Below, one piece after another: positions 5,390-23,358 of a DNA stretch of 23,358 nt (positions within the stretch are counted from its first letter, which is position 1; every line of letters starts with the position of its first letter). Source of the stretch: a virus. The position numbers and the translations under genes are program-made. Location: positions 1-23,358 of IMG/VR virus record IMGVR_UViG_3300025102_000302. The stretch is one strand, 5' to 3'. The notes below the pieces were generated by a model. The model did not search any database, was not told where the DNA came from, and saw nothing but the letters and a program-made list of their open reading frames with translations.

Positions 5390-5627
5390 ACACATAAAAG
5401 TAATTGTAGATGACGGTAAGATAATCAAGGCTAGTTGCCGAAGATTGCCGGACGGTCAGTGGTCAGTAGTTGGGTGGGGTCCGTCCCTGTCTGTAAGAAG
5501 CACAAGTGTTGACAGCGATCCGTTACTCGATGAGTTCATTGACACCTTGCTTTACATCAACAATGTGGAACCCAATGATCTGGATTCCGGTTCTGTCTAC
5601 GACGCTCTCGTAGATGTGATACAATAA
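5379..5627 (+). CDS. Small unknown protein, last gene of left operon
   Basis: 82 residues from ATG 5379. The frame is open farther back to 5307, but that start would overlap the preceding gene by 83 bases, whereas 5379 gives an 11-base overlap typical of coupled phage genes. The product is soluble and acidic: an N-terminal strand-rich part (KHIKVIVDDGKIIKASCRR, then GQWSVVGWG) followed by an acidic helix with DEFIDTLLYI. No family is recognised. A terminator hairpin begins nine bases after its stop, which makes it the last gene of the operon. Confidence 0.65.
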   Translation: METKHIKVIVDDGKIIKASCRRLPDGQWSVVGWGPSLSVRSTSVDSDPLLDEFIDTLLYINNVEPNDLDSGSVYDALVDVIQ

Positions 5628-5635
5628 ATAACATC

Positions 5636-5670
5636 AAGCCTAGCCGTGTGAAAGCGGCTAGGCTTTTATT
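5636..5670. terminator. Intrinsic terminator between convergent operons
   Basis: An 11-bp perfect stem (AAGCCTAGCCG at 5636-5646, CGGCTAGGCTT at 5655-5665) with an 8-base loop is followed on the plus strand by TTATTTATT. On the minus strand the stem is followed by GATGTTATTTATT, so it may work in both directions. It sits between the plus-strand stop at 5627 and the minus-strand stop at 5670, ending both convergent operons. Confidence 0.85.
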
Positions 5671-8600: not shown

Positions 8601-11600
8601 GTTGTTCTGGACCAGCTCCATAACGTCGTTCATCATCCTTTCAGTGCGTCCTTCGATGGCTTTCTGAAGTGCGTCCGCTTGCTTACGGATTTCAAGGATT
8701 CGGGGATCGAGTTCGCCGTTCAGCCACTTCGTATAGACGTTGCTCTGATATTTACCGTCCTTGAACACACCTACAGGAAGCTCGAAGCCTCTCAAGAACG
8801 GGAAACGCTCGTAGATCTGTTCGTCAGTTGTCTCGGCGTTGATCTCCTTGAGTTTACTGACCTCTAGCGTAGCAGCGAATCTCCGGTTCAGGTTGTCGAT
8901 AGTGAGTTCAGGGGTCGCGATATCGAAGTTAAGCATATCACGGATGTGGAACACACCGCTCCTGAGAAGTTGGACCTCGTTAGATATCCGGTTGATCATG
9001 CGAGCCATCTCTGGGTTGTTCTTATTCAAGTTGTATTTACCATACATTCTCTTGAAGACCCCCTTCAAGTAACGGAACATCACTTTGAAGAAATTAGGGC
9101 TGGTGATATAGAAAGCTTTGTCTTGTTCGGTGGTGTAGCCCCTGTCGATCTTCTGGCCTTCCATGCGGAGTTTCTCCCCTACCAACTGGCGTTTGGTTCC
9201 TACGTCCCCCTCACGAACTTTATCTTTAAGACTCTTACGTAATGCCTCGTTTTTGGTATACTCCTCAATGATCTCGTCAAATTTATTGAGAGTTAGGTCA
9301 GACGCAGCAGAATCTAATTCCTCAAAAGTAATCGTGCGCTGTTCAGCGGCATGGACAAGCTCCTCGTTCAAGACAGTCTCAAGGATCATCTTGGCGTGGT
9401 TAGCGTTAGCTACTTCATTAGTATAACTAAGCACAGCCGCCTGTGCCACCTTACGATTGACGAAGATTGTGGCTACTGGGCGGTCGCCGATCATGGCGAT
9501 CTGAGCCACGAAGGCGGAGTCCTCCCTACCTTCAAATGGAGAGACTTGGCCCTCCTCAACTTGAATAACTGGAACATCCCTCGGGACAGTGGCCGCGACT
9601 ACGTCGTCGATAATCTCGTCCATCGCGGCCTGTTGTTCAGGTGTGAGTAGTTTACCGTTCGAGATTCCTTCGACAGAAGCGAATCTCCTGTTCTTGGACG
9701 CCTCGGCATTCTTAATCATATCGTCGGAATACTTTAACAACGCGTCTTCAGCATCACTACGGGTGGGTCTCCGTGAAACGGTGTCGATATCGCCTGTCGG
9801 TGCTACGTCCATGTTCATGAAGTCAGCCAAGTCGTCGAACGCTTTTGCCAGACGAGTGTTGTTTTGGATGCCGAACAGAGACTTGATGGCGTTAAGGATT
9901 CTGCGGAACAAGCCAGACTCTGGTAATCGTCGGACCTCGTTCTGGAACGTAGCAGACGTGAAGGAGGTCGCGATGAACTCGTCGAGGTTCGATAAGCCGT
10001 GGTCTATAGCCTCTGATACTCTATTTGATTTCCTGAAATTGCTGGCTACCATCTGGCGAAGCCCTTCGAGTCTCTTTATCGCGGCTCGTTGTTTCGGGTT
10101 TAGATTCTTGCTTCGGATAAGGTAGGCAGTCGCGGCGTGGAGATACTCATGGAGTAGGATGGACTCGATGCCGGAACCGTATTTGGAGGCGACATTGACG
10201 GACACACGGCTCTTCCCACCTCCAAGAGGGACGAAGCTACCAGCGACTCTACTTAATGGATTATCTGCAATTCGGAAGTTAGTATTCCTTATAAGTGCCT
10301 TGTCCTTGAGGAGTAACTTAGCCACAAGTCGATGGGACTCATCGACGCCTGTCTTAGCGATCTCTTCGAGGGCGGCGACAACGGACTCAGGATCACCATC
10401 GACCAAGCCGAGACGAGCGATGTCCTCGTTGTTATCCTCGCGAGCCATCTTAGCCTCCTTAAAGGTAGCGAGGTTAGGAGCATTCATTTCGCGTAATAAC
10501 CCGATGATCTTCGCCTGAGCTTTCCTTGCAACGGCCTTTTCCTTTTTAGATTTGGGGTCCAACCCGAACGATGATAATGCCTGCCGAACTACTGGCGGTA
10601 GGTTGTCGTAGTTCTCATGGAACTTTGAAGTTGGGACTTTTTTACCTCCTGCTCTTTTAACGGCGATTGTATTTAACAGTTCGCGGAAGATCGCAGGCAT
10701 TGATTTATCTTTACCTTCAATGTCTTTACTTTTAATTGAAGGGTCTACTTCTTTAGTGATTGCCAAAATACCAAGAATTAGCTTTTGGGCTTCTATATCA
10801 TCCGGTTTAAGAACTGTGGGGATTTCGGAGAAAACCTCTTCATCTACTCTTGCTACGGTATCATCTAAGACGAACTGATAAGCGTGCGAGTCTACAGGGT
10901 CAATAACTCCATCTGTAGGTGTAGGTGTAGGTGTAGGTGTAGGTGTAGGTGTAGGTGTAGGTGTAGGTGTAGGTGTCTCTGGAGCTACTGGAGCTGGCGT
11001 GTTCTCATTAAGCTCAGACGCCACTGGCCCTGCTTTATCCTCGGCTCGTTTTCTTACGCGTTGCCCTACATCTTGTGAGATTTTTAGAAGGTTAGGGAAC
11101 GACGTGCCTTCCTGTGGTTGGAACTGCGGTGAGTCTAACATAGTCTCTACCGACTTGAATATAATTAGGTCTTCCCAACCTTTTATAAGTCTCTTCCTTT
11201 TTTTTGTTCCGTGGACGTTACCAATAAATTCTTTGTTGCCGTCAGTGCCGAAGGGGTTTGTAATGCCTTTGCCCGTGTTGACGTGATATAAGAAAGCGGC
11301 TAGGTCTTCTTTGTCATTGTTATTGCGTTTATTGAGGTTAGAATCTTCCGTGGTTCCAGTTAAGAACTGAACCTTATCGAGTTTCGGGTCATTAAGCACC
11401 TCCCTAATAGCCGCCATGTCAAAAAACCCAGACTCAATGAGGGCGTCGGATACTTTAGCCGCCTCTTGAGCTGCCCTAGATCTCAGTAGGATTCCCTCTG
11501 GGTCAACTTTAATACTCCCAACGGTTTTCCGTAAGGCTGCAATCGCTGCGGTGTGATTCAGATCGAGTAATATCTCGGAAATTATGGCTCCTCTAAATAA

Positions 11601-14600
11601 CTCGTCCTTCTGATCTTTTGTTGGCAGCCTTGCCTTATCGATTCCGCTTATCATCCGTACACGTCCCCCAACAGGTGAGTTTAAAGCACTATCAATGAAC
11701 TCGTCTATTTTAGAAACCGCCTCCTTATAGGTAATCTCACCGTCCGCGATATACTCTCGGTTTTCCTCTTTCGTCTCTTTCGTGAAAAGACCAAACTTGC
11801 TAAAGGTGAATTTAACGTCCGAAGCTTTATTAATCGCCGAGGTGAATTTAATCCTTTTTTCAGCTAACGCGGTTTGCGATTGATTTTTAGATTCCTTACC
11901 TCTCTTCGAGTTTGGGCTAAAGGCAGGTTTTCTAATGTCGGTCAGTGCGCCGTCCTCTACCGTGAATAGTTGCGTGCTGTATTTCATACCAGCAGCAACC
12001 TTGATTCCTCTTTGATTTTTCCCAAGAAGGTAATTCATTTTAACGGGATCGTTATCGAAAAGAAACCCATCGACGACGTGCCTGAAAACACCTTTCGCCC
12101 TCGTCTCTATGTCTTCGGCCCTATACCCGTATGCCTCAGCTACTTCCTCTTCTGTGCGTAGTATGTAGAGATTACTATTCTCATCATTTTGTTTCTCTAG
12201 TAGGTCTTCCTCAAACTTTTTAGCGCGTGCTGACAAAAACGGTTTGATACCCGAAGGTAGCCCATACCTACCAGACGCATTCTTGAGATCAATTGGGTAT
12301 CCAATTTCCAAGAGTTCTTCCAACCTAGCTTCAACGGTTGCCTCCAATTCGGGATCGATTTTAGGGGTGTCTGAGTCTCCATCTGGTTGGTCGGGTGCTG
12401 TAGGGGTTTCTACTTGCGCTGACTCTTCACCCTCGCCCTTGACGGTTCCTGTTTCCGTAACTTCTGCTAAGTCTTCAATGAAGGGTATAAGTTCAGCGTC
12501 AGATAATCCATACAACTCTTGGAACTCCTTGAGGTCTTCGCGAGTTATTTTTTCTGCCTTACCGCCAAATGTGACTTCGATTGTGGTAGGGTTGGTGAGG
12601 TTCTCCTCCGCCGTCAACTCCGCGAGTTGCTCAGGGGTAGCGTTCACCAAAGCCTCGTAGACTCTTTTCGCTGTGGCTTCGTCCCGTTCTTCGGGGGTAG
12701 CGTTTGCTAAATCATCGAAGTTCTTCGCCGCTTCGGCTTCATTCCTTCTGGCTCTCTCTTTTCTCGCAGCCTGAAAATCTCTAGCAGCCCCTACAGTGCC
12801 TGCTTCTTTGCGGCCTCGTAAAAAGTACTCCATCACTTCCTTAGTTTCCTCGATAACTGTATCGAGTTGCGGGTCTGATAAATCTTTAATTTTTGTTCCT
12901 TGGGGGGCGTCTCCGTGTGTCGAGAATAGCCCTCTTTCTCTAGTTACATCAGATTGATTAGTCTCCGTCCAACCAAACACAGAACTGTCTCCATCTTCAG
13001 TAACTACTCTTTCCCCGTCCTCACTCAAATACACAATTTTAAGTATGCCGTCACTCTCTTTAAAGTTTTTGACTGTGAACACTTTCTCCCTTCCGAAGGG
13101 GTCATAAAGAGTCTTCTGTGAACCAATCTTCGGAGCTGTAAGTGTAGTCTCTTCTTCAGCAGTTGGAGCTGCTTCTGTAGGCGTAGCTGCTTCTGTAGGC
13201 GTAGCTGCTTCTGTAGGCGTAGCTGCTTCTGTAGGCGTAGCTGCTTCTGTAGGCGTAGGCGTAGCTGCTTCTTCTGATTTTGTAGGTGTAGGTGTAGCTG
13301 CTGATTTCGCCTGAGCAGGAGCCTGAGCTGGAGCTGGTTGGGCTTCCGCAATCGCCAGCATGAACTGCCTAGCGGATGTCGGGGAACCAGTCTTTGTAAG
13401 GTTGTCAGCGGCTTTCCTAGCTACCTGACCTTGAACATCGAGTTCGGCACTCGTATTTCTACCACTGAAAACCCTATTATACCCTGCGGTTGCGACAGGC
13501 ATCGCTCCTCCGAGGATACCCCCATAGACAGCACCCATCCCAACAGCGGTAAGATACTCTGAAAAGGGTAGATCTTGGCCAGTGGCCTCGACTTGGACAA
13601 TCGTATTTAAGCCTGCGTCAAGACCTTCTTCAATAGATTCAGAGGCTGCGCCAATACCTATTCTCGCCCACATCGGGTCGGCGAACTGGTTCGGGCCTTT
13701 TTCGAGGACTTTTTTGAGTGTCTTTTGATACGCTCCGTCGGAAAGTTTCACCCCATTCAATCGGTCAAATACTCTCCTAACCTGTTTAAGAGAAGCCCCG
13801 TTCCCCACGAAGCTCTCAATTCCACCGAACCTATTGACTCCGAAAGCCCCTACTAGAGAACCAGTGATAAGGTAAGCGGTCGCTGCTGCGCCCAACGCCT
13901 TGCCTCGGATCTCTTCCTTACTTAAAAACTGCCCTTCAGGGCTTCGGCTGATCCCATCAAATACAGCCGCGTAGGTCATTGAGGCACTACGTAGTCCAGC
14001 GACATTAGAAACAGAGCCGATCTTAACTACTTTGTTACTAGCGATCTTTGCGTATGTATTAAGGAAGGTGGAGGGGGCAACGTCTTTAATTTTGCTCTTT
14101 CCAGTGGACTTGGCCACTGCTTGCATAGTTTCGCGGGATAATTTTCTTACTGTGGCCTTTAGGGCATTCTTAGCACCCACCGCAGCTAAAACAGGGACAG
14201 CACCTACACCACCCGTCGCGGCTGTTACAGCCGTTGAAGCTATGAGATCTGAGATAATGGGTAAGGCAGTGGCAGCAAGCTCTGTCCCGAAACCGAAGTC
14301 CTGACCGAACATTCTGGCTACGGTGGTCCGCGCCTGACGGTCCTTCATGTTCTCGACAAGGAACCTCTCGGCGTTGTCGTATTTGTCGAGGTCAAAGCCC
14401 ATCTTTTCGCTAACCCTATCCGCAGCGAAGGTTAGCCCCCAAGCCAAGTCTGTAGCCCCTTCACCAAGTGCTAGTGCAAGGTGTTGGGCTTTGTTTTTGA
14501 AAGAGTAGTTTGTGTTCTTTACGAACTCGTTAAGGATGTCTGGGTCGGATGCGGTTCCTTTGCGGTCGGCGTAGAAAGAAGCCCACTCATCTTTTAGATA

Positions 14601-15728
14601 GGAGCGGCTCAAGGAATCACTAAGATCTGGGAAAAGAGATTCTCGGATAATGTCGCGTTGGGCATTAGCGCGATTCTTCTCCCCCTCACTCATCCCCTTG
14701 ATAGCTTCCTCGAACTGAGCGGGGTCTTCTAGTAACTCGCGGTGGTATGCGGCGTTCCCGTAACCGAAAGTTTTGATGTTGTTCCGTAGGTTGTCCTCGT
14801 CGAACTTAGGAGACCCACTCATCATAGCCGAAGACCCGATGTGATATTCTAGGGCGGCTACTAAGTCCTTCTGAGATATTTGTTGTGCGCCTCCATCTTC
14901 GGATCTAATAGAGTAAGCTAATGCTTCTAATTCATTGCGAGGTATCTCACCAGTTCTAGCATATTCTCTAGAAGCGGCATTTAGTTCCTCGTCAATGTAA
15001 GCACGCTTTTCGTTCCCGTAGATCTTCGCGTCGTTAATAATTTCAGAAAGGTAATTACTGGCCTCTACAAAGTTAAGTTGGCGGAACGCCTCATACCCGT
15101 TCTTATCCTTTCGGGCCAGCTCTGAAATGACTTGTATATCGTTAGGGGTGATGGTTCCCGCAGCGAGTGACTTTTCATATGCTTCGTAAGCGGTCAACCC
15201 GACAGCGGCGTCTCCTCCCTGTATCTGGACAGAACCGTCTGGCATCTCAATTCTGGAGAAAGGAATGCCGTTGTTGTTTAACGACCACTGGACAGCATCA
15301 TCATACTGAAATTCTACTATTTCTTCGACTTGTGAGCGTAGATCTTCAGTTTTCTTTTTTATTATTTCAGGTGCGTCTGGCTGGTTTTCAAGAACCTTCT
15401 GGTAGCCTTTAAACTTAGCTAACGTCTCGCGATCTTCATCGCTGCCGATGCTGCTATAAGATCGGTTGATAAGATCCAACTTCTGCTCGAAGGTGGGTGC
15501 TTTGGGTGTGAGGGCTTCCTGTAGTTGCTCAGTCGATACACCTTCGCTACTAGCTCCCTTGACCATTGACTCATCAATTAAGCCATAGATCTCGCGCATC
15601 TCTTCTCGGCTGAGATCTTCTTTAAGGTATTCCGCTTTTACGTAATTAGAAAATCCTGTCCATTTATCGACAGGATCGCTAACGTCGTTGATGGCTGACC
15701 AATCTTCGATCTGCTGTAGTTCTGGCAT
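5670..15728 (-). CDS. Giant polyvalent internal virion-type protein (3,352 aa)
   Basis: The largest gene of the window, starting 6 bases after the 327-residue gene. Visible architecture: a helical N-terminus (1-480); Ala/Gly-rich hydrophobic stretches near 483-523, 608-633 and 724-750; an Ala/Pro/Thr repeat linker (about 825-854); a long charged region; a Pro-Thr repeat (about 1585-1606); a zincin-like domain with HEYLH at 1860-1864 and a likely third ligand E1917 in the DEFIA segment; a second zincin-like region in which the motif reads EELVH (2122-2126), lacking the first His; long coiled coils; and hydrophobic segments near 2782-2823 and 3025-3050. Zincin sites and mixed domains are typical of phage large polyvalent proteins, several of which are packaged and ejected with the DNA. 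An internal-virion role is inferred from size, position and membrane-interacting segments. No RNA polymerase or lytic transglycosylase motif was recognised. Confidence 0.8.
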   Translation of the reverse strand: MPELQQIEDWSAINDVSDPVDKWTGFSNYVKAEYLKEDLSREEMREIYGLIDESMVKGASSEGVSTEQLQEALTPKAPTFEQKLDLINRSYSSIGSDEDRETLAKFKGYQKVLENQPDAPEIIKKKTEDLRSQVEEIVEFQYDDAVQWSLNNNGIPFSRIEMPDGSVQIQGGDAAVGLTAYEAYEKSLAAGTITPNDIQVISELARKDKNGYEAFRQLNFVEASNYLSEIINDAKIYGNEKRAYIDEELNAASREYARTGEIPRNELEALAYSIRSEDGGAQQISQKDLVAALEYHIGSSAMMSGSPKFDEDNLRNNIKTFGYGNAAYHRELLEDPAQFEEAIKGMSEGEKNRANAQRDIIRESLFPDLSDSLSRSYLKDEWASFYADRKGTASDPDILNEFVKNTNYSFKNKAQHLALALGEGATDLAWGLTFAADRVSEKMGFDLDKYDNAERFLVENMKDRQARTTVARMFGQDFGFGTELAATALPIISDLIASTAVTAATGGVGAVPVLAAVGAKNALKATVRKLSRETMQAVAKSTGKSKIKDVAPSTFLNTYAKIASNKVVKIGSVSNVAGLRSASMTYAAVFDGISRSPEGQFLSKEEIRGKALGAAATAYLITGSLVGAFGVNRFGGIESFVGNGASLKQVRRVFDRLNGVKLSDGAYQKTLKKVLEKGPNQFADPMWARIGIGAASESIEEGLDAGLNTIVQVEATGQDLPFSEYLTAVGMGAVYGGILGGAMPVATAGYNRVFSGRNTSAELDVQGQVARKAADNLTKTGSPTSARQFMLAIAEAQPAPAQAPAQAKSAATPTPTKSEEAATPTPTEAATPTEAATPTEAATPTEAATPTEAAPTAEEETTLTAPKIGSQKTLYDPFGREKVFTVKNFKESDGILKIVYLSEDGERVVTEDGDSSVFGWTETNQSDVTRERGLFSTHGDAPQGTKIKDLSDPQLDTVIEETKEVMEYFLRGRKEAGTVGAARDFQAARKERARRNEAEAAKNFDDLANATPEERDEATAKRVYEALVNATPEQLAELTAEENLTNPTTIEVTFGGKAEKITREDLKEFQELYGLSDAELIPFIEDLAEVTETGTVKGEGEESAQVETPTAPDQPDGDSDTPKIDPELEATVEARLEELLEIGYPIDLKNASGRYGLPSGIKPFLSARAKKFEEDLLEKQNDENSNLYILRTEEEVAEAYGYRAEDIETRAKGVFRHVVDGFLFDNDPVKMNYLLGKNQRGIKVAAGMKYSTQLFTVEDGALTDIRKPAFSPNSKRGKESKNQSQTALAEKRIKFTSAINKASDVKFTFSKFGLFTKETKEENREYIADGEITYKEAVSKIDEFIDSALNSPVGGRVRMISGIDKARLPTKDQKDELFRGAIISEILLDLNHTAAIAALRKTVGSIKVDPEGILLRSRAAQEAAKVSDALIESGFFDMAAIREVLNDPKLDKVQFLTGTTEDSNLNKRNNNDKEDLAAFLYHVNTGKGITNPFGTDGNKEFIGNVHGTKKRKRLIKGWEDLIIFKSVETMLDSPQFQPQEGTSFPNLLKISQDVGQRVRKRAEDKAGPVASELNENTPAPVAPETPTPTPTPTPTPTPTPTPTPTDGVIDPVDSHAYQFVLDDTVARVDEEVFSEIPTVLKPDDIEAQKLILGILAITKEVDPSIKSKDIEGKDKSMPAIFRELLNTIAVKRAGGKKVPTSKFHENYDNLPPVVRQALSSFGLDPKSKKEKAVARKAQAKIIGLLREMNAPNLATFKEAKMAREDNNEDIARLGLVDGDPESVVAALEEIAKTGVDESHRLVAKLLLKDKALIRNTNFRIADNPLSRVAGSFVPLGGGKSRVSVNVASKYGSGIESILLHEYLHAATAYLIRSKNLNPKQRAAIKRLEGLRQMVASNFRKSNRVSEAIDHGLSNLDEFIATSFTSATFQNEVRRLPESGLFRRILNAIKSLFGIQNNTRLAKAFDDLADFMNMDVAPTGDIDTVSRRPTRSDAEDALLKYSDDMIKNAEASKNRRFASVEGISNGKLLTPEQQAAMDEIIDDVVAATVPRDVPVIQVEEGQVSPFEGREDSAFVAQIAMIGDRPVATIFVNRKVAQAAVLSYTNEVANANHAKMILETVLNEELVHAAEQRTITFEELDSAASDLTLNKFDEIIEEYTKNEALRKSLKDKVREGDVGTKRQLVGEKLRMEGQKIDRGYTTEQDKAFYITSPNFFKVMFRYLKGVFKRMYGKYNLNKNNPEMARMINRISNEVQLLRSGVFHIRDMLNFDIATPELTIDNLNRRFAATLEVSKLKEINAETTDEQIYERFPFLRGFELPVGVFKDGKYQSNVYTKWLNGELDPRILEIRKQADALQKAIEGRTERMMNDVMELVQNNPEANDQLLGDFLGRSSDIDLPDNFRQKRYDISRERILRESYERGSPIPDSERVAIIQEEVDDVVEAELAKLRSAAKAKKEAAYEKLYQTDRPLFEALSELRLLLDALSKKLSGVFNTKGDLSITIDSNLGIYVVRSYRAFLEEGYMDKVMKVVRGESDAGDEQMVQHYQNVYKLFEEEYMQTFARRESKKEEGEPESQQASYDQLMEDAKAKLAAAKDGGQDLIRDAILQYLYALDPNSKFKGKLAESATKSLVNRLRERKQIPEDFRKLLGQYPDSDVLENVLRSITTVSQSASKESFLRNVIKLGLRPESKFVYNLEEVRAEQLQGKDLNLVNLRTGARAVTIDIEKETLTDKAEEKVSVTQDYYVPREMYDDIQRQFQRSVEDSLASHSQFVEGGLRIAKYAVGSSLAAKTLFSVGFYLRNILGNVAFFAPLVGLNPVKVAIGLKNIGNLYANNMKGLDEYTSELVMLNVAHGDLTSNTIKELLQGKTTLKGLEQEAEEVVSKIDTLLKSGKKAYDKTVQPVMKRAVALSQAIDSAYKIVYFQNEFEVLKKARAEDQKNGVKDGEGYNLSDYDLKTKAAHAVRRTSQSYVDAYESVKYATGKYSFLLPPFVRFRMDILRIMLDGLPRQIKEELSSGNKVIVGRGIKRVAGATFTIGGLSLIIPYLTRVLVAGLSDEEDDMLRETLPDWQKDATLFFWSDTKFYDLTYVNPISGVTNIPYQAMGEVMDGKPVSALVKAFSLLFKEYGGSQIVSSAIMDAKQNRDPRTGGKIYKEDGSFSSFVDAVTYVGKQAYEPRISSAIRNVSSAALGDVPLNEKKSALALITREIKPAREYTIDWERVFQRAVGNNKERKNDARLKINKLKSRSSLTDGDIEAAVSEFVNGQKEAAQELSRYITAAQTRGLTNSQIDGTLSYYKLPKDYIRDVKLRRFTRPDIPDSLAGGLRSRGDDSSLDRLNKAMDQIISGWPLVEPYE
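10914..10976 (-). repeat. TGTAGG hexamer microsatellite coding (Pro-Thr)n
   Basis: The plus strand has TGTAGG repeated ten and a half times without a break. On the coding strand it encodes alternating Pro and Thr at about residues 1585-1606 of the giant protein. As the unit is six bases, copy-number slippage would keep the frame. Confidence 0.95.
13168..13257 (-). repeat. 18-bp tandem repeat coding EAATPT
   Basis: Five perfect copies of the plus-strand unit GCTGCTTCTGTAGGCGTA, followed by a partial unit and more Pro/Thr/Ala coding sequence to about 13310. It encodes repeated Glu-Ala-Ala-Thr-Pro-Thr at residues of about 825-854 of the giant protein. There are no spacers, so this is not a CRISPR array. 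Confidence 0.95.
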
Positions 15729-15734
15729 GGTAGT

Positions 15735-16718
15735 TTAATCTGGTTGTCCGAAAAAGGCGGACGTGACATTGTCTCTCTCTTCGTCCGCTTTTGGGGTCGT
15801 GAGAGAGTCTTGCCCTAATTGGCTAAAGTCAATCCGCGTATAAGCTATATCTCTTATTTCTTGGATAAGTTCTCGGCTCTTTTCTAATGGGAAATCTGCG
15901 GTAGCTTGGGCGCGGCCACTTTTCAATGGCTCGCCCCTTAACCTAACTAGGTCATCGATGAACTCGTCGTAGTCTGCTGTGTCCAGTGCTAGATAAACAT
16001 CTCTTGTCACCTTGCCATCACTATCCATTACCGGTTTTTCATCGAAGGACACAGACTGGAGTCTCTTAATAGTGTCTTCAGCAGCTTCTTTAGTAAAGTC
16101 GGGGGAGTCTTTTTTCTTCGAGGCTTCCTCTTCTAATTCCTTTGCGCGAGCAATCTTACTCAGTATGTCGGAAACTTGTTGGTCGCTGACATCTCCGGCT
16201 AATACACCCTTATAGACATTTTCGTCGTATAAGCCAGTCCGTAAAGTTCCTTGTCGGTAGTCGTTAGCGGCTGTGTTCCTAATCTTCATCTCGTTTTGAC
16301 GAAGCTTTGCGTCGGACGCCATCTGACTCTCTAGTAACTTATCCTGATAACTAAACAGTGAGGAGATGGTGGGGTTAGTGTTGATCAGCCCAATATTATT
16401 CATAGCGAAGTCGGTGAAAGCTTCGCGCTTCTCCATCGGAGTGGTCTCGCTAGTGCGTATCTCGCGTAGGCGATTGTCGATCATCGGTATAGACTTATTG
16501 GCTTCCCGCTCCATACGGAGTTCGTTTCTTTGTTTACGGAAGGCTAACTTCTGCCGTTTGAAAGCGAGATTATCTTGCTCCAGCTTCATGGTCTGCTGCT
16601 GCATAGGCATCAAGACTTTATTGTGGAAGTCCATCGATTGATCAAAACCTCTTTCACCGACGAGTGTCGGGAAATAATTCTGGTATAGTGTGGCGATATC
16701 TTTGTTATAATCAATCAT
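15735..16718 (-). CDS. Coiled-coil virion-associated protein, unknown
   Basis: 327 residues, family not recognised. Residues of about 33-75 form a long charged/Gln-rich coiled coil (MQQQTMKLEQDNLAFKRQKL and following). More helices follow, with Lys/Glu-rich segments near 190-215. There are no membrane segments or cysteines. It lies between the 561-residue gene (42-base gap) and the giant gene (6-base gap) on the same strand, a position often held by internal-core or ejection proteins; that role is inferred from context. The start is supported by an A/C-rich leader like those of the left operon. Confidence 0.8.
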   Translation of the reverse strand: MIDYNKDIATLYQNYFPTLVGERGFDQSMDFHNKVLMPMQQQTMKLEQDNLAFKRQKLAFRKQRNELRMEREANKSIPMIDNRLREIRTSETTPMEKREAFTDFAMNNIGLINTNPTISSLFSYQDKLLESQMASDAKLRQNEMKIRNTAANDYRQGTLRTGLYDENVYKGVLAGDVSDQQVSDILSKIARAKELEEEASKKKDSPDFTKEAAEDTIKRLQSVSFDEKPVMDSDGKVTRDVYLALDTADYDEFIDDLVRLRGEPLKSGRAQATADFPLEKSRELIQEIRDIAYTRIDFSQLGQDSLTTPKADEERDNVTSAFFGQPD

Positions 16719-16755
16719 CTAACTTATAATTTGTTTAGTTTGTGTGGGGGAGTTT
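16719..16755 (-). promoter_or_regulatory. A/C-rich leader of the 327-residue gene
   Basis: Read on the minus strand, the gap holds CCCCCACACAAACTAAAC, then AAATTATAAGTTAG, directly before ATG 16718. It has ACAAAT-like content but not the full octamer, and no Shine-Dalgarno sequence. The style matches the left-operon leaders. Confidence 0.35.
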
Positions 16756-16760
16756 AATTA

Positions 16761-18446
16761 CTACACTCCATCTCCAGACTGACCTAAAATCTCTAGTTGC
16801 TCGCGAGCTGCCGCCGCCTGCGCCCGACGCTGGTCTGCTCTCCGTTTATCGTCAGCCGGAGTGTTGATAGGAGGTTCCTTCGCCCTCATCCCCTCTGCCT
16901 GTGCGTCCATCGCTCTCCAAGAGGGATTTCCTCTGCGGAAGAGCCTGCGAGCTGCGCTACGTATCCTAGCACTCGGAGGACCGACTGGTTGTGCTGGTGT
17001 GGATCTTTGCTTCGCAGTGATTCCTTCGGTCAACGATGTGCCAGTGCCAAAGGGGCGACTAGGGATTTGTAGGGCGTCTAAGTAATTTAGTCCTGTCCCG
17101 AATTGCCGTTGATAAGCTACTTCTTCTGCTGCTTCTGCTGCGGTCATCGGAGTAGATGTGTTATTGGGGGTTCCTCTTGTGCCTTTTACACCACTTTCGC
17201 CTTTTACGCCACTTACGCCTTTTCTTGGCGTGTCGAATAAACCTGTCCCAGTCCTTGGTTTTTTGTAGGAGAAGGCAGAACCCCTTAGTCGGATACCGTT
17301 CTTCTCCAAGAACGTATTAAACTGATCGTCAGAAACACCAGCCATAGCGGCCCTCTCACGGGCCTCTTCGAGGAGGGCCGAGGTCAAGGCTCCTTTTTGT
17401 GAGAGGCTTTTCAGGCCGGAGGCGATGCCCCGCTTCTTTCCAAGCTGTTCCTTGCGTAACTCTTCGCGAGCCATCGCTCTGTCATACTGAGAATTTTCGC
17501 GGGAGCGAGCGGTTCCGTCTTCATTTAGCGAACCGAGACCAGATTTAAAGTCTTCTAAATCCTTCTGGGCCTTAGCTAAGTCGGGGTATTCTTCGGTAGA
17601 ATTGCCTTTGCTTCTCTCGTCAATGATCTTTTTAGCTTTTTCTGACGTTTTCGAGTCCGGCTCTGCTGAACTCCCCACCGGAGGTAGCTCGCCTTTTGCT
17701 TTTTTATCTCTTACGTCTCTATACATATTTAAAAAACCCGTCATATCGAGGTCTGGCTGGCTACTCTCGATGCGGAATTCACTGAGCCTTTCGTCTACTT
17801 CCGACGGTTTAAGCCCTAAATTTTCGAGGTCGATTCTCGTCTGGTAAAGTTTTTCAGGGCTTACAGGATTGATGGAGCGGTCTGGATTGGTCAGACCCTT
17901 CCGTAAATCTTTTAAGTAAGATTCGGGAGTCTCTGTAGCGGTCGTAGCCGTGTAAGGTGCGCCAGCCATACCTGCACCAAAATTCTCGATATTTTCTGCT
18001 GCGCTTTTTTTCCAGTAATCGTTAGTTGAGGGAGGTTCACCAGCCGACATAATCCGTTCGTTTGCCGTTCGCCTACCTACGGGTTCAGGTTTGTAAGCAG
18101 GGAAAACATCCCTGAGTTCTGCTGTCGTTACAGGAGGTGTAGCGGTCGCAGTAGGTGTAGCGGTCGCAGTAGGTGTAGCGGTCGCAGTAGGTGTAGCGGT
18201 CGCAGTAGGTGTAGCGGTCGCAGTAGGTATAGTGGTCGCAGTGGGTGTAGGCGTAGAGGCTCCATAACCTCCCCCCACATTCGCTCCTGTGGCACTCGCT
18301 GATGTAGATGCCGAAGCCCCCGCCAAGCCAGTTGCAGGCGTCGTAGTAGGCGGAGTGTTCGCGGGAGGCGGAGTGTTCGCGGGAGGCGGAGTGTTCGCCT
18401 GATTTGAGTTCTTTGCTTTTTTAAGCTCTTTTTTTCTATCGGCCAT
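16761..18446 (-). CDS. Thr/Pro-rich virion-operon protein, unknown
   Basis: 561 residues, no family recognised. A short basic start (MADRKKELKKAKN) leads into about 90 residues of Thr/Pro/Ala repeats encoded by two different 18-bp tandem repeats (ANTPPP and TPTATA units). The rest is charged and mostly helical, with a Gly-Val-Lys-Gly-type repeated patch (GVSGVKGESGVKGTRG) near two thirds of the length and an Arg/Ala-rich C-terminus (RIRSAARRLFRR, later RRADQRRAQAAAA). No membrane segment is present. ATG 18446 lies two bases after the upstream stop codon, so translation is probably coupled. It may be a structural or ejected protein given the neighbours, but no motif proves this. Confidence 0.8.
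   Translation of the reverse strand: MADRKKELKKAKNSNQANTPPPANTPPPANTPPTTTPATGLAGASASTSASATGANVGGGYGASTPTPTATTIPTATATPTATATPTATATPTATATPTATATPPVTTAELRDVFPAYKPEPVGRRTANERIMSAGEPPSTNDYWKKSAAENIENFGAGMAGAPYTATTATETPESYLKDLRKGLTNPDRSINPVSPEKLYQTRIDLENLGLKPSEVDERLSEFRIESSQPDLDMTGFLNMYRDVRDKKAKGELPPVGSSAEPDSKTSEKAKKIIDERSKGNSTEEYPDLAKAQKDLEDFKSGLGSLNEDGTARSRENSQYDRAMAREELRKEQLGKKRGIASGLKSLSQKGALTSALLEEARERAAMAGVSDDQFNTFLEKNGIRLRGSAFSYKKPRTGTGLFDTPRKGVSGVKGESGVKGTRGTPNNTSTPMTAAEAAEEVAYQRQFGTGLNYLDALQIPSRPFGTGTSLTEGITAKQRSTPAQPVGPPSARIRSAARRLFRRGNPSWRAMDAQAEGMRAKEPPINTPADDKRRADQRRAQAAAAREQLEILGQSGDGV
18135..18242 (-). repeat. 18-bp tandem repeat coding TPTATA
   Basis: Five perfect copies of the plus-strand unit AGGTGTAGCGGTCGCAGT (18135-18224) and a sixth copy with two changes (18225-18242). 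They encode Thr-Pro-Thr-Ala-Thr-Ala repeats in the N-terminal part of the 561-residue protein. Confidence 0.95.
18348..18398 (-). repeat. 18-bp tandem repeat coding ANTPPP
   Basis: Two full copies and one partial copy of the plus-strand unit AGGCGGAGTGTTCGCGGG encode Ala-Asn-Thr-Pro-Pro-Pro near the N-terminus of the 561-residue protein. The unit length equals that of the TPTATA repeat about 100 bases away, but the sequence is different. Confidence 0.9.
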
Positions 18447-18448
18447 GA

Positions 18449-18742
18449 TTACCAGAGGTGTTTGCAGGCCCAGTGGCGTGCGGTTGTCTTATCTTTAGCA
18501 GTTTTGCAGTTGTGTCTGGCCCTGAAATTAGCCCGACGCTTAGGGTTCTTGTGCTTGGTGAAATCACTGTAATCGCGATGTCCGTAAGAGACTTTCTTGA
18601 TTTTGTCACCTTCTTTACCTAATACGACGAATTTTTTTTTCGATCCTTTCGGGGCGCGTTTAGGCTTATTAAAGCCAGCGAACGTCTCGCCGTGGTATTG
18701 GATACGACCGGAAGGGAGCCGTTTGAATCGTTTGTTCGCCAC
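18449..18742 (-). CDS. Small basic Cys/His protein, DUF5754-like
   Basis: 97 residues, very rich in Lys/Arg. The C-terminal half (KHKNPKRRANFRARHNC, then DKTTARHWACKHLW) is a pattern I associate with small proteins of phages and large DNA viruses grouped as DUF5754; the exact family name is uncertain. Two Cys and several His residues could bind metal, and the charge suggests nucleic-acid contact. Both are inferences. The start is GTG; no in-frame ATG exists nearby, and the promoter 6 bases upstream fits a leaderless message beginning at or next to this GTG. It is the first gene of the minus-strand virion operon, two bases from the next start. Confidence 0.7.
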   Translation of the reverse strand: MANKRFKRLPSGRIQYHGETFAGFNKPKRAPKGSKKKFVVLGKEGDKIKKVSYGHRDYSDFTKHKNPKRRANFRARHNCKTAKDKTTARHWACKHLW

Positions 18743-18748
18743 AGGCAG

Positions 18749-18777
18749 AAGATACAGGTTTTAGGATGAAGTGTCAA
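18749..18777 (-). promoter_or_regulatory. Consensus sigma70-type promoter for the virion operon
   Basis: On the minus strand, TTGACA (18777-18772) and TATCTT (18754-18749) are separated by exactly 17 bases. The -35 box is a perfect match; the -10 box matches four of six. The -10 box ends 6 bases before the GTG start at 18742, so the expected transcription start falls on or next to the start codon. It lies just downstream of the terminator-like dyad after the terminase gene, so it can drive the 97-, 561-, 327- and 3,352-residue genes as a separate unit. Confidence 0.75.
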
Positions 18778-18793
18778 TCTTCGGGATTCAGGC

Positions 18794-18873
18794 AAAAAAA
18801 ACTTTTTCCTCAGACGTATGGTATTACATAATATATTATATAATACTAAGAGCCTTAGACAAAAGTTTTTTTT
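18794..18873. terminator. Large AT-rich dyad, probable terminator of the terminase gene
   Basis: Outer arms AAAAAAAACTTTT (18794-18806) and AAAAGTTTTTTTT (18861-18873) are perfectly complementary over 13 bases and place a run of eight T at the 3' end on either strand. Inside lies a 26-bp near-perfect palindrome (18821-18846) with a perfect 12-bp core ATAATATATTAT. The right outer arm overlaps the terminase stop codon. The simplest reading is a terminator for the terminase transcript. A protein-binding site, packaging site or origin element is also possible. With the promoter beside it, this accounts for most of the 129-base gap. Confidence 0.6.
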
Positions 18874-20662
18874 AGCTAATCAAACTGGTATCGGGATTAT
18901 CAAGCGCACCACTAAGACTTTTAATCGTAACCTGTTTCCTGAACCCCGCATCCTTATCGTCTTTCGGTGGGTCAACAGCCACTAATCCTAAACGCTGGCG
19001 AGCGCAATCGAGAGCCAAGAACGCAGCATCAGCTAAATCAGGACTGCGACCAAACCGTGCCTTGAACTCTGGTTTCGACTCGATCTTCACTCTCAGCGTT
19101 CCTGTTCCCTTAGTCATATCGTAGTTTCTGGCACACATTTCCTGTGCGAGATCCGATGACACACCGTAAATCTGCTTAGTTCTCAGCAGTTCCTTGCCTA
19201 CGAACCAGAGTTCAGAGACTCGATTCGTGTAGAGTTCGGCTCCGGTTAGCTGGCTGTTCATGCTGACGCGCTTGTCTGAGCCTTTCCCGCCAAAGGTAAC
19301 GCGCATAAAGTCGCTCGACCACTCGCCAGCCAGCACGTCGCAGAACGGCGCACCCGCTCCGGTCGAGTCGAGTGCTACGTTATTAGCAGAGATATTTCTC
19401 CGCTTACAGTGGTCGATAATCTGATGGACGATCTGGTAGGTTCGGGGAACCGCTTTATTAGTGGCGTCATCATTTAGGTGTATGGCTTCTCCTAACTTGC
19501 AGACGTATTGCCCGTTTCGGGCGTAGCCGACTTCGGCGGTATACATAATAGTCCGGTCGCCACCGTTGGTGAAGGCAGGGTCGATTCCCGCGACGACGGT
19601 CGGTTTATCCGCCCAATCTACTTTTCCCATCGCGCCACCTTTGGTCAACTCTGCCTCAGAGTAGATTCCGGTGGTCTCATCTGAGTCGAAGAAGACGGCG
19701 CGAACCATCCTCATGTATCCTCTGGACTCCGGCCCCAATAACGCCCTGTCTTCCTCTAACTTCTCAGCGGTAGGTAACCAAGGATATTTAACCTCTCCTA
19801 ACGTAATGTTCGGACTCCGCTCACCGTCCAGTCTAATATATTTACCACCCCATTTCGTCTTCCATTCGTCAGCGGTCTGTGCGTCAATAGATTCCCAGCC
19901 TTTCTTCGGCTCCGACCAGACGCCGAAAGCGTCGAAGCGGCTGTTGGGGTTGGACATACCAATCATCTGGAAAAACGGGTTTTTAGAGAGGTTGGTCAGG
20001 CCAGCCTGCAATATCGCCTCACTAAGCTCCGAAAGCTCATCACCGCAAAGTATCACCCGCTTCTGCTTGATTCCGATGAATTTTCCAATCGCCTCTCGCG
20101 TCTTAGACTTTTCCGCTGCAATAAGCGATAAACCAGCCCTCTCGATAAGAGTGCCGTTCCCGTCCACATATGCAGCGTTTCCTATCGAATCCCGTATCTT
20201 GATCGGCGCACCATCGATCACGGACAATAGAGACATTACTGAACCCCATATCCTTTTTCGTGCTTCCCGTAGCGTGGTTGAGGTCATCAGGACCAACGTA
20301 TCGGCTGGTTGCGATAACCACTGGATAATCCCCCAAGCCGCCATTGTGTGGGACTTACCAGACGACGCAGAGCCGCCAATCGCTAAATATTTGTTATTGA
20401 GGGCAGCGCGGATCATCTGTTCTGCCCAAGGATGGCGAACCATCATTGGCTCCGGTAAATCGTCGCGGTTCCACAACTCGTCACACACACGCCAGAAATA
20501 ATACTCTCTCGCGATGACTTTTGGGTGGTGTGCGAAACCGTATAGGAGGGCCGTAACTAAACTGGTTGGTGGAATCGAAAGACCCCCGACATCCATCTTT
20601 TTTGTTATTGGGTGGATTCTAGGTTCGAGAATTTTCTTGCCACCACCATTCTTACCGGACAT
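18872..20662 (-). CDS. terL: Terminase large subunit (ATPase/nuclease)
   Basis: 596 residues, a usual to slightly long size for the family. The N-terminal ATPase has Walker A GSASSGKS at 97-104, Walker B VILCGDE at 203-209 and a coupling-motif-like GMSNP at 235-239. The C-terminal RNase H-like nuclease has its first acidic residue at D361 (VVAGIDPAF), a second at D432 (VALDSTGAG) and a third at D542 or D545 (SPDLADAAFLA). It packages phage DNA into the prohead through the portal and cuts the concatemer. All key residues appear present. It is transcribed away from the small-subunit-like gene, with only 20 bases between the two starts, and ends in a large dyad. Neither portal nor capsid genes follow, which is unusual. 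Confidence 0.95.
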   Translation of the reverse strand: MSGKNGGGKKILEPRIHPITKKMDVGGLSIPPTSLVTALLYGFAHHPKVIAREYYFWRVCDELWNRDDLPEPMMVRHPWAEQMIRAALNNKYLAIGGSASSGKSHTMAAWGIIQWLSQPADTLVLMTSTTLREARKRIWGSVMSLLSVIDGAPIKIRDSIGNAAYVDGNGTLIERAGLSLIAAEKSKTREAIGKFIGIKQKRVILCGDELSELSEAILQAGLTNLSKNPFFQMIGMSNPNSRFDAFGVWSEPKKGWESIDAQTADEWKTKWGGKYIRLDGERSPNITLGEVKYPWLPTAEKLEEDRALLGPESRGYMRMVRAVFFDSDETTGIYSEAELTKGGAMGKVDWADKPTVVAGIDPAFTNGGDRTIMYTAEVGYARNGQYVCKLGEAIHLNDDATNKAVPRTYQIVHQIIDHCKRRNISANNVALDSTGAGAPFCDVLAGEWSSDFMRVTFGGKGSDKRVSMNSQLTGAELYTNRVSELWFVGKELLRTKQIYGVSSDLAQEMCARNYDMTKGTGTLRVKIESKPEFKARFGRSPDLADAAFLALDCARQRLGLVAVDPPKDDKDAGFRKQVTIKSLSGALDNPDTSLIS

Positions 20663-20682
20663 AATATTATCACTTAATACTA
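20663..20682. promoter_or_regulatory. 20-bp gap between divergent terminase starts
   Basis: The two divergent ATG codons (20662 minus, 20683 plus) are separated by 20 A/T-rich bases. -10-like hexamers are present (TATTAT at 20665-20670 on plus; GATAAT at 20671-20666 on minus), but no matching -35 box was seen for either. Any promoter must overlap the opposite coding sequence, or messages must have almost no leader. Confidence 0.4.
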
Positions 20683-21354
20683 ATGGAACCTAAAGACAAG
20701 GCTTTGTTTGAGGAGCAACTGGAGATAAACCCTAATCTCCGCGAGGCTCACAATTTGGCGTGCAAGGGCTGGTCTAACACCGCTATTGCCGAACATTTTG
20801 GTGTCCACTACAATACAGTTAGGTCGTGGTTTAAATCAGCCTCTTTCGCACCGAGGCCGAGAGGTGGTGCAAATAACACCCACAAAGAAGCACTTAAAAA
20901 GATCCACAAGATTGAAGGCGAAGAAGCGGAAGACGATTCCATCTACAATATCCTAGAGCCGTTAACAGAGGCCGCTGTAAAAGATTTCAAAAGGCAAGCC
21001 TCCTCCGAAGAGGACGAGTCACTCGCGGAAATAGCGGCTGCTCAGTCAACCGCCGCCGACAAATACCAGCATTACATAGCCGCAGCCGGAATTAAGTTGC
21101 TACGGGACTCACTAAAAACGATTAAGGGTCCGCGCACGGTAAAAGAGCTTTCGGATTTAGATCAGTTGATTCGACGTAGCATGGGCCTAAACGAAAAAGG
21201 TGCTGGAGGTGGTTCTGGAAAAATGCAGATTGACATCTCCATCCTAAATAACAGTATGGCCGATAAAGGAAAGGGGTCGCTAAAAGCAATGAAAAGTGAT
21301 GCTATCGACGCTGACGTAGTTTCTGAAAAAACAGCTAAAACCAAGAAAAAGTAA
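20683..21354 (+). CDS. HTH protein, probable terminase small subunit
   Basis: 223 residues. Residues of about 26-54 form a helix-turn-helix (CKGWSNTAIAEHFGVHYNTV followed by RSWF). The middle is a Glu/Ala-rich helical segment suited to oligomerisation (about 75-150). A segment DLDQLIRRSMGLNEKG is followed by a Gly-rich turn and a strand MQIDISILN, an ending I associate with phage small terminase subunits. The tail is Lys-rich. Small subunits bind pac/cos DNA and regulate the large subunit. The assignment rests on this architecture and on the adjacent, though divergent, large-subunit gene; an ordinary HTH regulator is the alternative. The stop overlaps the next start by one base (TAATG). Confidence 0.65.
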   Translation: MEPKDKALFEEQLEINPNLREAHNLACKGWSNTAIAEHFGVHYNTVRSWFKSASFAPRPRGGANNTHKEALKKIHKIEGEEAEDDSIYNILEPLTEAAVKDFKRQASSEEDESLAEIAAAQSTAADKYQHYIAAAGIKLLRDSLKTIKGPRTVKELSDLDQLIRRSMGLNEKGAGGGSGKMQIDISILNNSMADKGKGSLKAMKSDAIDADVVSEKTAKTKKK

Positions 21355-21584
21355 TGTTTGAAGATCGCGAACCCGAAGTAGGGGCAAGGTTCATCACCCG
21401 AGTAGATGAGGGTGCTGATTTCCGCTTTCCTGTCGATACCGCCGACGGGCTATGGTATCGTGTGAGGCCGTCAACGGCCCGTGAAGTGTTCTACTTGCAA
21501 TCGTTGCCGAAAGGGATCAGGGTTCTTGTTCCGGCAGAGGGCGACGGCCTACTTATCAGAGGAGATTCAATACCAGTAAAATGA
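21354..21584 (+). CDS. Small unknown protein
   Basis: 76 residues, soluble, without cysteines or recognisable motif. It appears strand-rich, with repeated Arg/Val/Leu alternation (GARFITRVD, LWYRVRP, GIRVLVPAEGDGLLIRG), compatible with a small beta-barrel; that is a guess from pattern. Its ATG overlaps the stop of the HTH gene by one base and its TGA overlaps the next start by four (ATGA), so translation is probably coupled through three genes. Confidence 0.7.
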   Translation: MFEDREPEVGARFITRVDEGADFRFPVDTADGLWYRVRPSTAREVFYLQSLPKGIRVLVPAEGDGLLIRGDSIPVK

Positions 21585-21979
21585 AACCTGAAACCCTATT
21601 CCGTCTTCACGAAGAGACGTGCGCTAAAACGCTCGACATCATGCGAGCAAAGAACTCCGACTATTGCGGCGGCACTGAGACAATCGACGCCCTTGCTAAT
21701 TTTAAATCAGCTAAGTCTTTAGGACTCCATCCGGTCACCGGATTGCTGTTACGGATGCAGGATAAACTAATGAGGATTAAGTCGTTCGTGAACGATGGTC
21801 AGTTACAGGTAGCTGGCGAGTCGGTCGATGACGCCTGTGAAGATCTTGTGAATTACTCTATCTTAGCCAAAGCCCTCCTTACTGAGGAACGCGAGGAACA
21901 CTGCGAGACGTGCGACGGGCCTGTGGAAGAGGACTGCGACAATATGTATTGTCCTGAGTATATTCCTACTCAGTTGTAA
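21581..21979 (+). CDS. DUF1599-like nucleotide-modification protein with Cys cluster
   Basis: 132 residues. Residues 1-100 match the pattern I know for DUF1599 (nucleotide modification associated domain 1, MazG-like helical fold): K24-x2-DY (27-28), F41, R58-x2-DK (61-62), R65, then E80, D83/D84, D88 and Y92. These acidic residues are expected to bind metal and nucleotide, pointing to nucleotide-pool hydrolysis or base modification. After this domain comes a short tail with Cys 108, 111, 119 and 124, spaced like a small zinc knuckle. The gene is coupled to its upstream neighbour by an ATGA overlap. A GGAG at 21561-21564 lies 16 bases before the start, too far for standard pairing. Substrate unknown. 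Confidence 0.75.
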   Translation: MKPETLFRLHEETCAKTLDIMRAKNSDYCGGTETIDALANFKSAKSLGLHPVTGLLLRMQDKLMRIKSFVNDGQLQVAGESVDDACEDLVNYSILAKALLTEEREEHCETCDGPVEEDCDNMYCPEYIPTQL

Positions 21980-21994
21980 CTCCTAAAATATAAT

Positions 21995-22022
21995 TCGCCA
22001 TAGGCAGTGGCGACTTTCTTTT
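21995..22022 (+). terminator. Short hairpin with T-rich tail before the RuvC-like gene
   Basis: TCGCCA (21995-22000) pairs with TGGCGA (22008-22013) around a 7-base loop, followed by CTTTCTTTT. The stem is only 6 bp, so it may be a weak terminator or attenuator. It ends 12 bases before ATG 22026 and occupies the place where a Shine-Dalgarno sequence would be expected, so it could also act on translation. Confidence 0.5.
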
Positions 22023-22025
22023 AGC

Positions 22026-22514
22026 ATGATCGTCGGAGTAGACAACGGATTGGATGGCGGACTCTGCGCCATATCGAAACACGACGGCAGTCTCATTGAT
22101 AAAATTCGCATGCCTACTCTCCAGATGTCGAAGAAGAAAGAGATCGACATCCGTAAGGTTCATCAATGGATAATGGATCTGAACACCTCCTTTATATTTG
22201 CGGTCGAGGAACCTCTAGCTCACGCGAAGAGTAGTCAAGCAGTTCGGTCAATGGCGATCTCGTTCGGCAAGCTAGTCGGCATGGCTGAGTCCCACGACTA
22301 CGAAAACATAATGCGTGTGTCAGTCCACAAGTGGCAGAAGGTCATGCTGGGCAGAGTCCCTAAAGGCAAGACCAAAGAAGTTGCGTTGGGGCTAGCGAAT
22401 CAGTTAGAGCCGTCAGAGAACTGGCTGGCTAATAAACGATGCCGGACGCCACACGACGGCATGATCGACGCCTACCTTATTGCCCGATATATTTGGGGTG
22501 GTAAAAAAAGTTGA
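22026..22514 (+). CDS. RuvC-like Holliday junction resolvase
   Basis: 162 residues, the usual size of RuvC-type resolvases. The RNase H-like fold is indicated by D6 in the N-terminal strand (IVGVDNGLDGGLCAI), a Glu pair at 61-62 (FAVEEPLA), and D144 and D148 in HDGMIDAYLIA, giving four acidic catalytic positions. A Lys-rich segment (WQKVMLGRVPKGKTKEVA, from 103) is in the place where this family contacts DNA. The enzyme should cut four-way or branched DNA before packaging, or during recombination. The helicase gene follows at 55 bases. The family also includes poxvirus A22-like and phage resolvases. Confidence 0.85.
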   Translation: MIVGVDNGLDGGLCAISKHDGSLIDKIRMPTLQMSKKKEIDIRKVHQWIMDLNTSFIFAVEEPLAHAKSSQAVRSMAISFGKLVGMAESHDYENIMRVSVHKWQKVMLGRVPKGKTKEVALGLANQLEPSENWLANKRCRTPHDGMIDAYLIARYIWGGKKS

Positions 22515-22548
22515 TTTTTTTCTGGACGTATTACATCCCTTCAATTAT

Positions 22549-22566
22549 TTGTCTGTTCATAGACAA
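22549..22566 (+). promoter_or_regulatory. Hairpin directly before the helicase start
   Basis: TTGTCT (22549-22554) and AGACAA (22561-22566) are complementary around a 6-base loop, ending three bases before ATG 22570. A separate A7/T7 pair (22503-22509 and 22515-22521) spans the end of the RuvC-like gene and could act as a weak terminator. No Shine-Dalgarno sequence is present. A translational control role is inferred from position only. Confidence 0.35.
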
Positions 22567-22569
22567 TAA

Positions 22570-23358
22570 ATGAAGACGCTATATCCGAAACAACAAGACG
22601 CGCTCGACTTCTTCCTAGCGAAGCACAAGTTGAATTTGAACTCACTCGACACTAGCCATGTCGGGACTGGTAAGACCGTAGTGGCCGCTCATCTGGCCGA
22701 TGCTTTGAATAGACCCGTTGCGGTCTTGTGTCCGAAGGCAGTGATCCCGTCATGGGAGCGTGAGCTTAAAGAGACTGGCATCGAGCCGCTATTCGTTCTC
22801 AACTACGAGAAGATCAGGACGGGCCGGACGGACTTCATGTCCAAGCGTGGCAAGAAGATCATGACGTGGAACTTACCTAAAAACACATTAGTGTTAGTGG
22901 ACGAGGTTCACAGATGCAAAGGGCCGTATACGCAAAACGCGCAGTTGTTAGTTTCTCTCGTCGCACAAGGCTACTCGATTCATGCGATGAGTGCGACTGC
23001 CGCCGAAGACCCTACTGAAATGAGGCCAATCGGATACGCATTAGGTTTGCACAATCTCAACAAAGCGGAGGACGGTGTCAAAAGTTGGTTCGGGTGGATG
23101 ATGCAATACGGATGCACTCAGAACCAGTGGAACGCGTGGGAGCTTCGCCGTAAGACTAAACTCAGTGATCTTAATAGGGTCATGTATAGGAAGAATGTTA
23201 AACGGCTCACAGTTGATGACTTTCCCGATTCCTTTAAAGCGAACCGCGTATTCGTGGAGCCGATTGCGTTCGGCTCTGCTGCCAAGATCGCTAAGGCGTA
23301 TAAAGATTTAGACATCACTCCTGAAATCATCACCAATCTTCTGGAGAACGGAACCGTT
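22570..23358 (+). CDS. SF2 DEAD/DEAH-type helicase (N-terminal part)
   Basis: 263 residues to the window edge, with no stop. A Q-motif-like start (YPKQQ, 5-9) is followed by Walker A VGTGKT (31-36), a motif Ia-like VAVLCPKAVIPSWERE (50-65), Walker B/motif II DEVH (111-114) and motif III SAT (141-143). The PKAVIPSWERE segment is the type seen in SNF2-like and phage helicases. The second RecA-like domain lies beyond the window. It probably unwinds or remodels DNA during replication or recombination, fitting the adjacent resolvase. ATG 22570 is chosen because the Q motif begins within five residues of it. Confidence 0.85.
   Translation, partial: MKTLYPKQQDALDFFLAKHKLNLNSLDTSHVGTGKTVVAAHLADALNRPVAVLCPKAVIPSWERELKETGIEPLFVLNYEKIRTGRTDFMSKRGKKIMTWNLPKNTLVLVDEVHRCKGPYTQNAQLLVSLVAQGYSIHAMSATAAEDPTEMRPIGYALGLHNLNKAEDGVKSWFGWMMQYGCTQNQWNAWELRRKTKLSDLNRVMYRKNVKRLTVDDFPDSFKANRVFVEPIAFGSAAKIAKAYKDLDITPEIITNLLENGTV

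Follow-up and report, generated by a model that had tools for sequence, protein, structure and literature searches.

A Conserved Start-Abutting Sigma70-Type Promoter Predicted to Yield Leaderless mRNA behind terL in a Marine Phage Family

The stretch of DNA analysed here, called the window, spans the entire IMG/VR virus record IMGVR_UViG_3300025102_000302 (23,358 nt), and its minus strand carries, between the terminase large subunit gene (terL) and a gene for a 97-aa protein, a sequence that is probably a real sigma70-type promoter making a leaderless mRNA, one of a set found across the phage family, and restarting transcription after terL. In the proposed mechanism, a sigma70-type promoter of the form TTGACA-N17-TANNNT would recruit RNA polymerase, presumably carrying a host sigma factor, before the 97-aa gene, and the polymerase would begin transcription at the start codon's first base or no more than about 3 bases away. 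The mRNA of the 97-aa gene would then be essentially without a leader, its 5'-terminal GUG being recognised directly, without a Shine-Dalgarno sequence. Transcription coming from terL would stop at the palindrome behind that gene and be restarted by the promoter for the operon of the 97-, 561-, 327- and 3352-aa genes. The terL strand would carry several such start-abutting promoters, this one included.

Promoter and Gene Organization of the Window

The minus strand of the window reads TTGACA CTTCATCCTAAAACCTG TATCTT CTGCCT GTG GCG AAC, and the positions of these elements and of the neighbouring genes are collected in Table 1. The preliminary description had placed TTGACA-N17-TATCTT 6 bases before the GTG, at 18740–18777, and the coordinates, the spacer and the distance were all found as given there. 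The two features by which leaderless genes are recognised were observed at the 97-aa gene, namely a -10 element some 12 bp ahead of the start codon, the distance from the first T of the -10 to the GTG being exactly 12 bp in the window, and the lack of a Shine-Dalgarno sequence, none being found before the GTG in the window sequence. The frame is bounded by an in-frame TAA 21 nt 5' of the GTG, and the window sequence holds no ATG, GTG or TTG between the two.

Table 1. Positions of the promoter elements, genes and inverted repeats in the window
Feature	Position	Strand	Remarks
-35 hexamer TTGACA	18772–18777	-	sequence read; TTGACA identical in all 66 terL-linked loci with the gene
-10 hexamer TATCTT	18749–18754	-	17-nt spacer to -35; family consensus TANNNT
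6-nt stretch CTGCCT between -10 and start codon	18743–18748	-	pyrimidine at -1
GTG start codon, where transcription is expected to start	18740–18742	-	GTG in 65/66 loci
97-aa ORF	18449–18742	-	PF19058 DUF5754 / phrog_7595
561-aa ORF, second operon gene	16761–18446	-	without family match; gap 2 nt
327-aa ORF, third operon gene	15735–16718	-	without family match; gap 42 nt
3352-aa ORF, fourth operon gene	5670–15728	-	gap 6 nt
Terminase large subunit (terL), upstream gene	18872–20662	-	phrog_2, E 2.3e-14
80-bp imperfect palindrome, terminator-like hairpin with A/T-tract base	18794–18873		begins at terL stop; z -5.68
Inverted repeat between converging genes at operon end	5624–5677		likely bidirectional terminator

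A promoter scan of positions 15000–23358 gave 12 sites matching at least 9 of 12 bases, against 7.4 (sd 3.0) in shuffled sequences, and the window promoter is a 10/12 match in a region with further 10/12 sites. A lone 10/12 match at the 97-aa gene is within chance for the region, and the window promoter gains its significance from conservation in relatives, not from its own match count. A functionless chance match of the hexamers, in line with the match count of this single window, has a negligible probability when set against the conservation and repetition across the family, and it was rejected on the conservation in relatives.

The GTG gene had also been proposed as the head of an operon of four virion-type genes, and the successive gaps between it and the three following ORFs (2, 42 and 6 nt) are compatible with an operon. 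Searches of the PHROG and Pfam families returned no match for the 561-, 327- and 3352-aa ORFs, and, as comparison with PDB sequences likewise gave the 3352-aa protein no match, it was rejected as a known virion enzyme. Likeness of the four products to virion proteins came down to one weak match, of the 97-aa protein to the head/pilot family phrog_220 (E 0.00018). The 97-aa protein also matches 99 phage records, each at below 60% identity; its AlphaFold model has a mean pLDDT of 66.1, and no PDB fold match to the model was found at E 0.001. No match to the window's terL was found at E 1e-5 in 50,697 phage records, and Rfam and tRNA scans returned no matches.

Other sequence features were also observed around these genes. 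The 561-aa and 3352-aa ORFs contain runs of Thr-Pro/Ala that are encoded by short tandem repeats (18130–18260 and 10900–10960). TerL and a helix-turn-helix gene diverge from start codons only 20 nt apart (20663–20682), so the promoters of these two genes must overlap the neighbouring gene. In one relative (L129, ORF 9–2498) the TerL frame is broken in the Walker A region by an insertion that we take to be intein-like, its first residue being Cys and its end His-Asn before Ser, and in G016 (contig 92, 4343–7141) a 943-aa frame was matched in two pieces, with an insertion seemingly at the same TerL place.

Conservation of the Promoter among Relatives

A terL search of viral_contigs yielded 194 stretches encoding relatives, the best 80 of which were compared together with the window (81 sequences). 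The 97-aa gene is present after terL in 66 of these 81 sequences, window counted, and was not seen in 15, and TTGACA-N17-TANNNT precedes it in every one of the 66 terL-linked loci with the gene (window counted; best 80 of 194). The end of the -10 element is separated from the start codon by 6, 7 or 8 nt and once, in L013, by 10 nt; GTG opens the gene in 65 of the 66 loci and ATG in L078. Among the 15 loci not showing the gene, five end before the terL stop or at most 48 nt past it and are unjudgeable, and the promoter is kept in all ten of the others, which are without an intact 97-aa gene (one of them, L014, is cut inside the gene). By eye, the GTG is replaced by another codon in four of the loci without an intact gene (L030, L035, L036 and L038), and where the gene is missing and the GTG changed the message would have a leader of about 45 nt. 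Internal deletions were also seen by eye in L054, L055, L056 and L081, in which the GTG opens a 14- or 21-residue frame keeping the old C-terminus.

Near-copy loci were collapsed to 35 distinct 45-nt upstreams and these to 14 clusters at 75% identity, which are not fully independent of one another. The representatives of all 14 clusters have TTGACA at -35 and TANNNT at -10, and the mean column identity over the 14 clusters is 1.00 at the -35 and 0.87 at the -10 element, as against 0.53 in the spacer and 0.46 in the upstream 20 nt. The marks of a sigma70-type promoter were found together at this site, comprising a TTGACA -35, a spacer within 16–18 nt, a TANNNT -10 and conservation beyond that of the neighbouring sequence.

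Bacterial RNA polymerase favours a start 7–9 nt past the -10 element, at a purine with a pyrimidine before it. Counted from the end of the -10 element, the start codon opens at nt 7 in 18 of the 35 distinct upstreams, at nt 8 in 13, at nt 9 in 3 and at nt 11 in 1, which places it at nt 7–9 in 34 of the 35. The base at -1 is a pyrimidine in all 35; transcription should therefore begin at the start codon. The earlier proposal of a start coinciding with the GTG finds support, at the level of sequence, in the kept -35, spacing, -10 and start-codon distance. A pyrimidine followed by a purine where the codon begins, and the like promoters found at other places in relatives, point the same way.

Counting against this reading are the in-frame ATG or GTG located further upstream in 4 of the 35 distinct upstreams (the window not among them), the spacing in L013, the loci with a changed GTG, and the keeping of GTG without the promoter. 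When relatives' copies of the 97-aa gene were considered, the strict motif was absent from 35 of 76 distinct upstreams, and the GTG is also kept in several relatives where the gene lies inside other gene runs without the promoter. By eye, L160 (two loci), which belongs to those 35, has TTGACA-N16-TAATAT-8-ATG, and in L108 an upstream frame overlaps the GTG. The GTG was rejected as a sign of leaderlessness, since it is also kept where the promoter is absent and its conservation must have another cause.

Start-Abutting Promoters in the Phage Family

A scan for TTGAC-N17-19-TANNNT-N5-8-RTG, covering 16 records of the family with the window among them, gave 46 matches spread over 15 of the 16, compared with 3 for a reversed-pattern control. 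With the same promoter pattern and the start codon moved, 8 matches were obtained at 20–23 nt and 9 at 35–38 nt in the 16 records, and several of these displaced-start matches repeat either a start-abutting site or a single coding sequence. A pyrimidine occupies -1 in 38 of the 39 distinct start-abutting sites. Most of the larger records contain three or four such promoters, with four recurring places, as read in G002 and G005, at the genes for the 97-aa, 318–321-aa, 740–744-aa and 86–87-aa proteins. All but two of the promoters, one each in G006 and G015, are on the terL strand, and the DNA polymerase, helicase and exonuclease genes of G002 lie on the strand opposite terL; the terL strand would be the one expressed late. 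Sub-cutoff lectin and carbohydrate-binding matches were observed in the gene two places after the 321-aa gene, and they are compatible with a virion operon, without being proof of one.

The concentration of similar sites on the terL strand, together with -10 elements that are frequently weak among the loci (TAATTT, TAGTTT), would also suit a late promoter needing a phage activator or a modified polymerase, in which the consensus look would be part of the recognition only. This reading is considered unlikely, though it weighs more than the other alternatives, as TTGACA with a 17-nt spacing is a plain sigma70 signature and the upstream sequence (identity 0.46) has no extra motif common to the clusters. 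A scan of 20 ORFs of G002 (10 + 10, a part of its ORFs) detected neither a phage RNA polymerase nor a sigma factor.

A second start-abutting promoter-like site is present in the window on the plus strand at 89–123 (TTGCCT-N17-TAGACT-6-ATG), before a 295-aa ORF, with an A/C-rich stretch following it; the ORF has one relative, a 33% homologue in G006, which lies 62 nt after a TTGACA-N17-TATAAT site. In G005 an identical promoter-like sequence and frame occur near both record ends (307 and 59890), which suggests a terminal redundancy of about 1.8 kb.

Palindromic Hairpins and Predicted Termination

The palindrome behind terL forms a stable hairpin with a U-tract after the gene, the U-tract belonging to the base of the stem, and this base, AAAACTTTT/AAAAGTTTT, is compatible with a two-way intrinsic terminator. 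Hairpin z values below -3 were obtained in 47 of 56 distinct family regions (30 shuffles each), and across the family the hairpin sequence changes fast with its symmetry kept. Lying between terL and the promoter, this conserved hairpin has the look of a terminator.

Two further readings bear on this hairpin. The 97-aa protein might be made mostly from longer mRNAs reading through from terL, with the promoter real and the start-abutting message mainly feeding the downstream genes; terL and the 97-aa gene do share a strand with a 129-nt gap, and the promoter persists in the 10/10 loci without an intact gene (truncated L014 counted), which may mean that it chiefly serves the downstream operon. 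Such read-through is judged distinctly improbable in view of the strong conserved hairpin between terL and the promoter, the start codon holding the expected start-site distance despite length changes, and the missing Shine-Dalgarno sequence of the 97-aa gene. It is also conceivable, with very low probability, that the effective promoter is a TTGTCT-N16-TATAAT inside the palindrome (18862–18835), with a leader of about 85 nt. That sequence is itself a 10/12 match in the window; however, the tip of the palindrome varies, several relatives are without the TATAAT yet keep the hairpin, and TTGACA-N17-TANNNT is kept throughout, and the candidate was rejected because its TATAAT is not kept in relatives. 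The favoured arrangement is that of a hairpin ending the terL transcript, followed by the start-abutting promoter.

Copies of the palindrome were also observed at a second place about 20–35 kb away in six full relatives. The 26-nt tips differ by 0–1 bases within one genome (9 comparisons) and by 0–12 bases (mean 8.2) between genomes at the same place, the low values there coming from close relatives. The near-identical tips within a genome look like the outcome of gene conversion or concerted evolution between copies. Palindromes near two late-strand junctions are found, for instance, at 3910–3979, 4029–4098 and 25674–25743 in G002 and at 7533–7602, 29901–29970 and other positions in G005. No comparably strong hairpin was found just upstream of the other start-abutting promoters tested. 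In L057 the palindrome in the gap between terL and the promoter is extremely long and nearly perfect, with a dG of -98.6 kcal/mol over 175 nt.

Shine-Dalgarno Use and Possible Hosts

No convincing Shine-Dalgarno sequence was found at the usual place in any of 16 window genes inspected, and Shine-Dalgarno-like motifs are not enriched in the window, nor in three full relatives. TerL relatives in contigs of metagenome-assembled genomes (MAGs) were found at 4 loci in three unrelated bins, namely Opitutae (two contigs), Blastopirellula and Altibacter. In the Opitutae bin, Shine-Dalgarno-like motifs precede 17% of 90 ORFs compared with 10% in the control, which suggests weak use of the signal, and some Verrucomicrobia and Flavobacteriia are listed as Shine-Dalgarno-scarce in PMC10783764. 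As for the start codon, a leaderless GTG has less than 10% of the activity of ATG in E. coli, and in mycobacteria it works like ATG, a 5'-terminal ATG or GTG being sufficient for translation (both in PMC4633059). PMC9031893 describes the same equivalence of leaderless GTG and ATG in other Actinobacteria, and poor use of non-AUG codons in leaderless initiation in Caulobacter.

A wider picture may be drawn from these observations, and it is offered tentatively, being rather doubtful as a whole. Late protein synthesis of the family would take place largely on leaderless mRNAs, including those with a 5'-terminal GUG, by means of start-codon-fused promoters; the host would stand outside Actinobacteria and Thermus and barely use Shine-Dalgarno sequences; and the palindromes near two promoters would be kept alike within a genome by recombination.

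Comparison with Known Systems

Leaderless translation is well studied in few bacterial groups, and few descriptions were found of phage operons depending on it; no account of leaderless promoters in this marine phage family was found in the literature searched. The family set represents a natural comparison (gene kept or lost, ATG for GTG, spacing of 6–10) for the evolution of start-site choice and of 5'-terminal initiation codons, and gene finders that depend on a ribosome site could set gene starts wrongly here.

Lambda cI is a phage gene whose transcription starts at the start codon. It is a single AUG repressor gene, whereas a set of late-strand operons is involved here. Lambda is named as a leaderless case in PMC3160421, and cI is described as leaderless in PMC9031893. 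In PMC3160421 bacterial leaderless genes are defined by a TANNNT some 12 bp before the start codon, and the window agrees with this at exactly 12 bp; in contrast to that class as described there, the window also has a conserved consensus -35. The leaderless genes of mycobacteria have the same geometry (PMC4633059), but they are cellular genes of Actinobacteria, whereas the present promoter belongs to an uncultured marine phage with relatives binned with Opitutae, Blastopirellula and Altibacter MAGs.

The closest likeness is to the Thermus phage phiYS40, whose middle and late mRNAs are mostly leaderless and which shifts initiation factors toward leaderless translation, according to PMC3594737. 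Both would be phages with leaderless late messages, those of the present family, and their late timing, being predicted from sequence. However, phiYS40 belongs to another phage group. In the present family the TTGACA -35 is always present and the 97-aa gene starts with GTG. Leaderless late phage mRNAs are thus already known from phiYS40, and the present family would add a predicted, family-wide conserved case.
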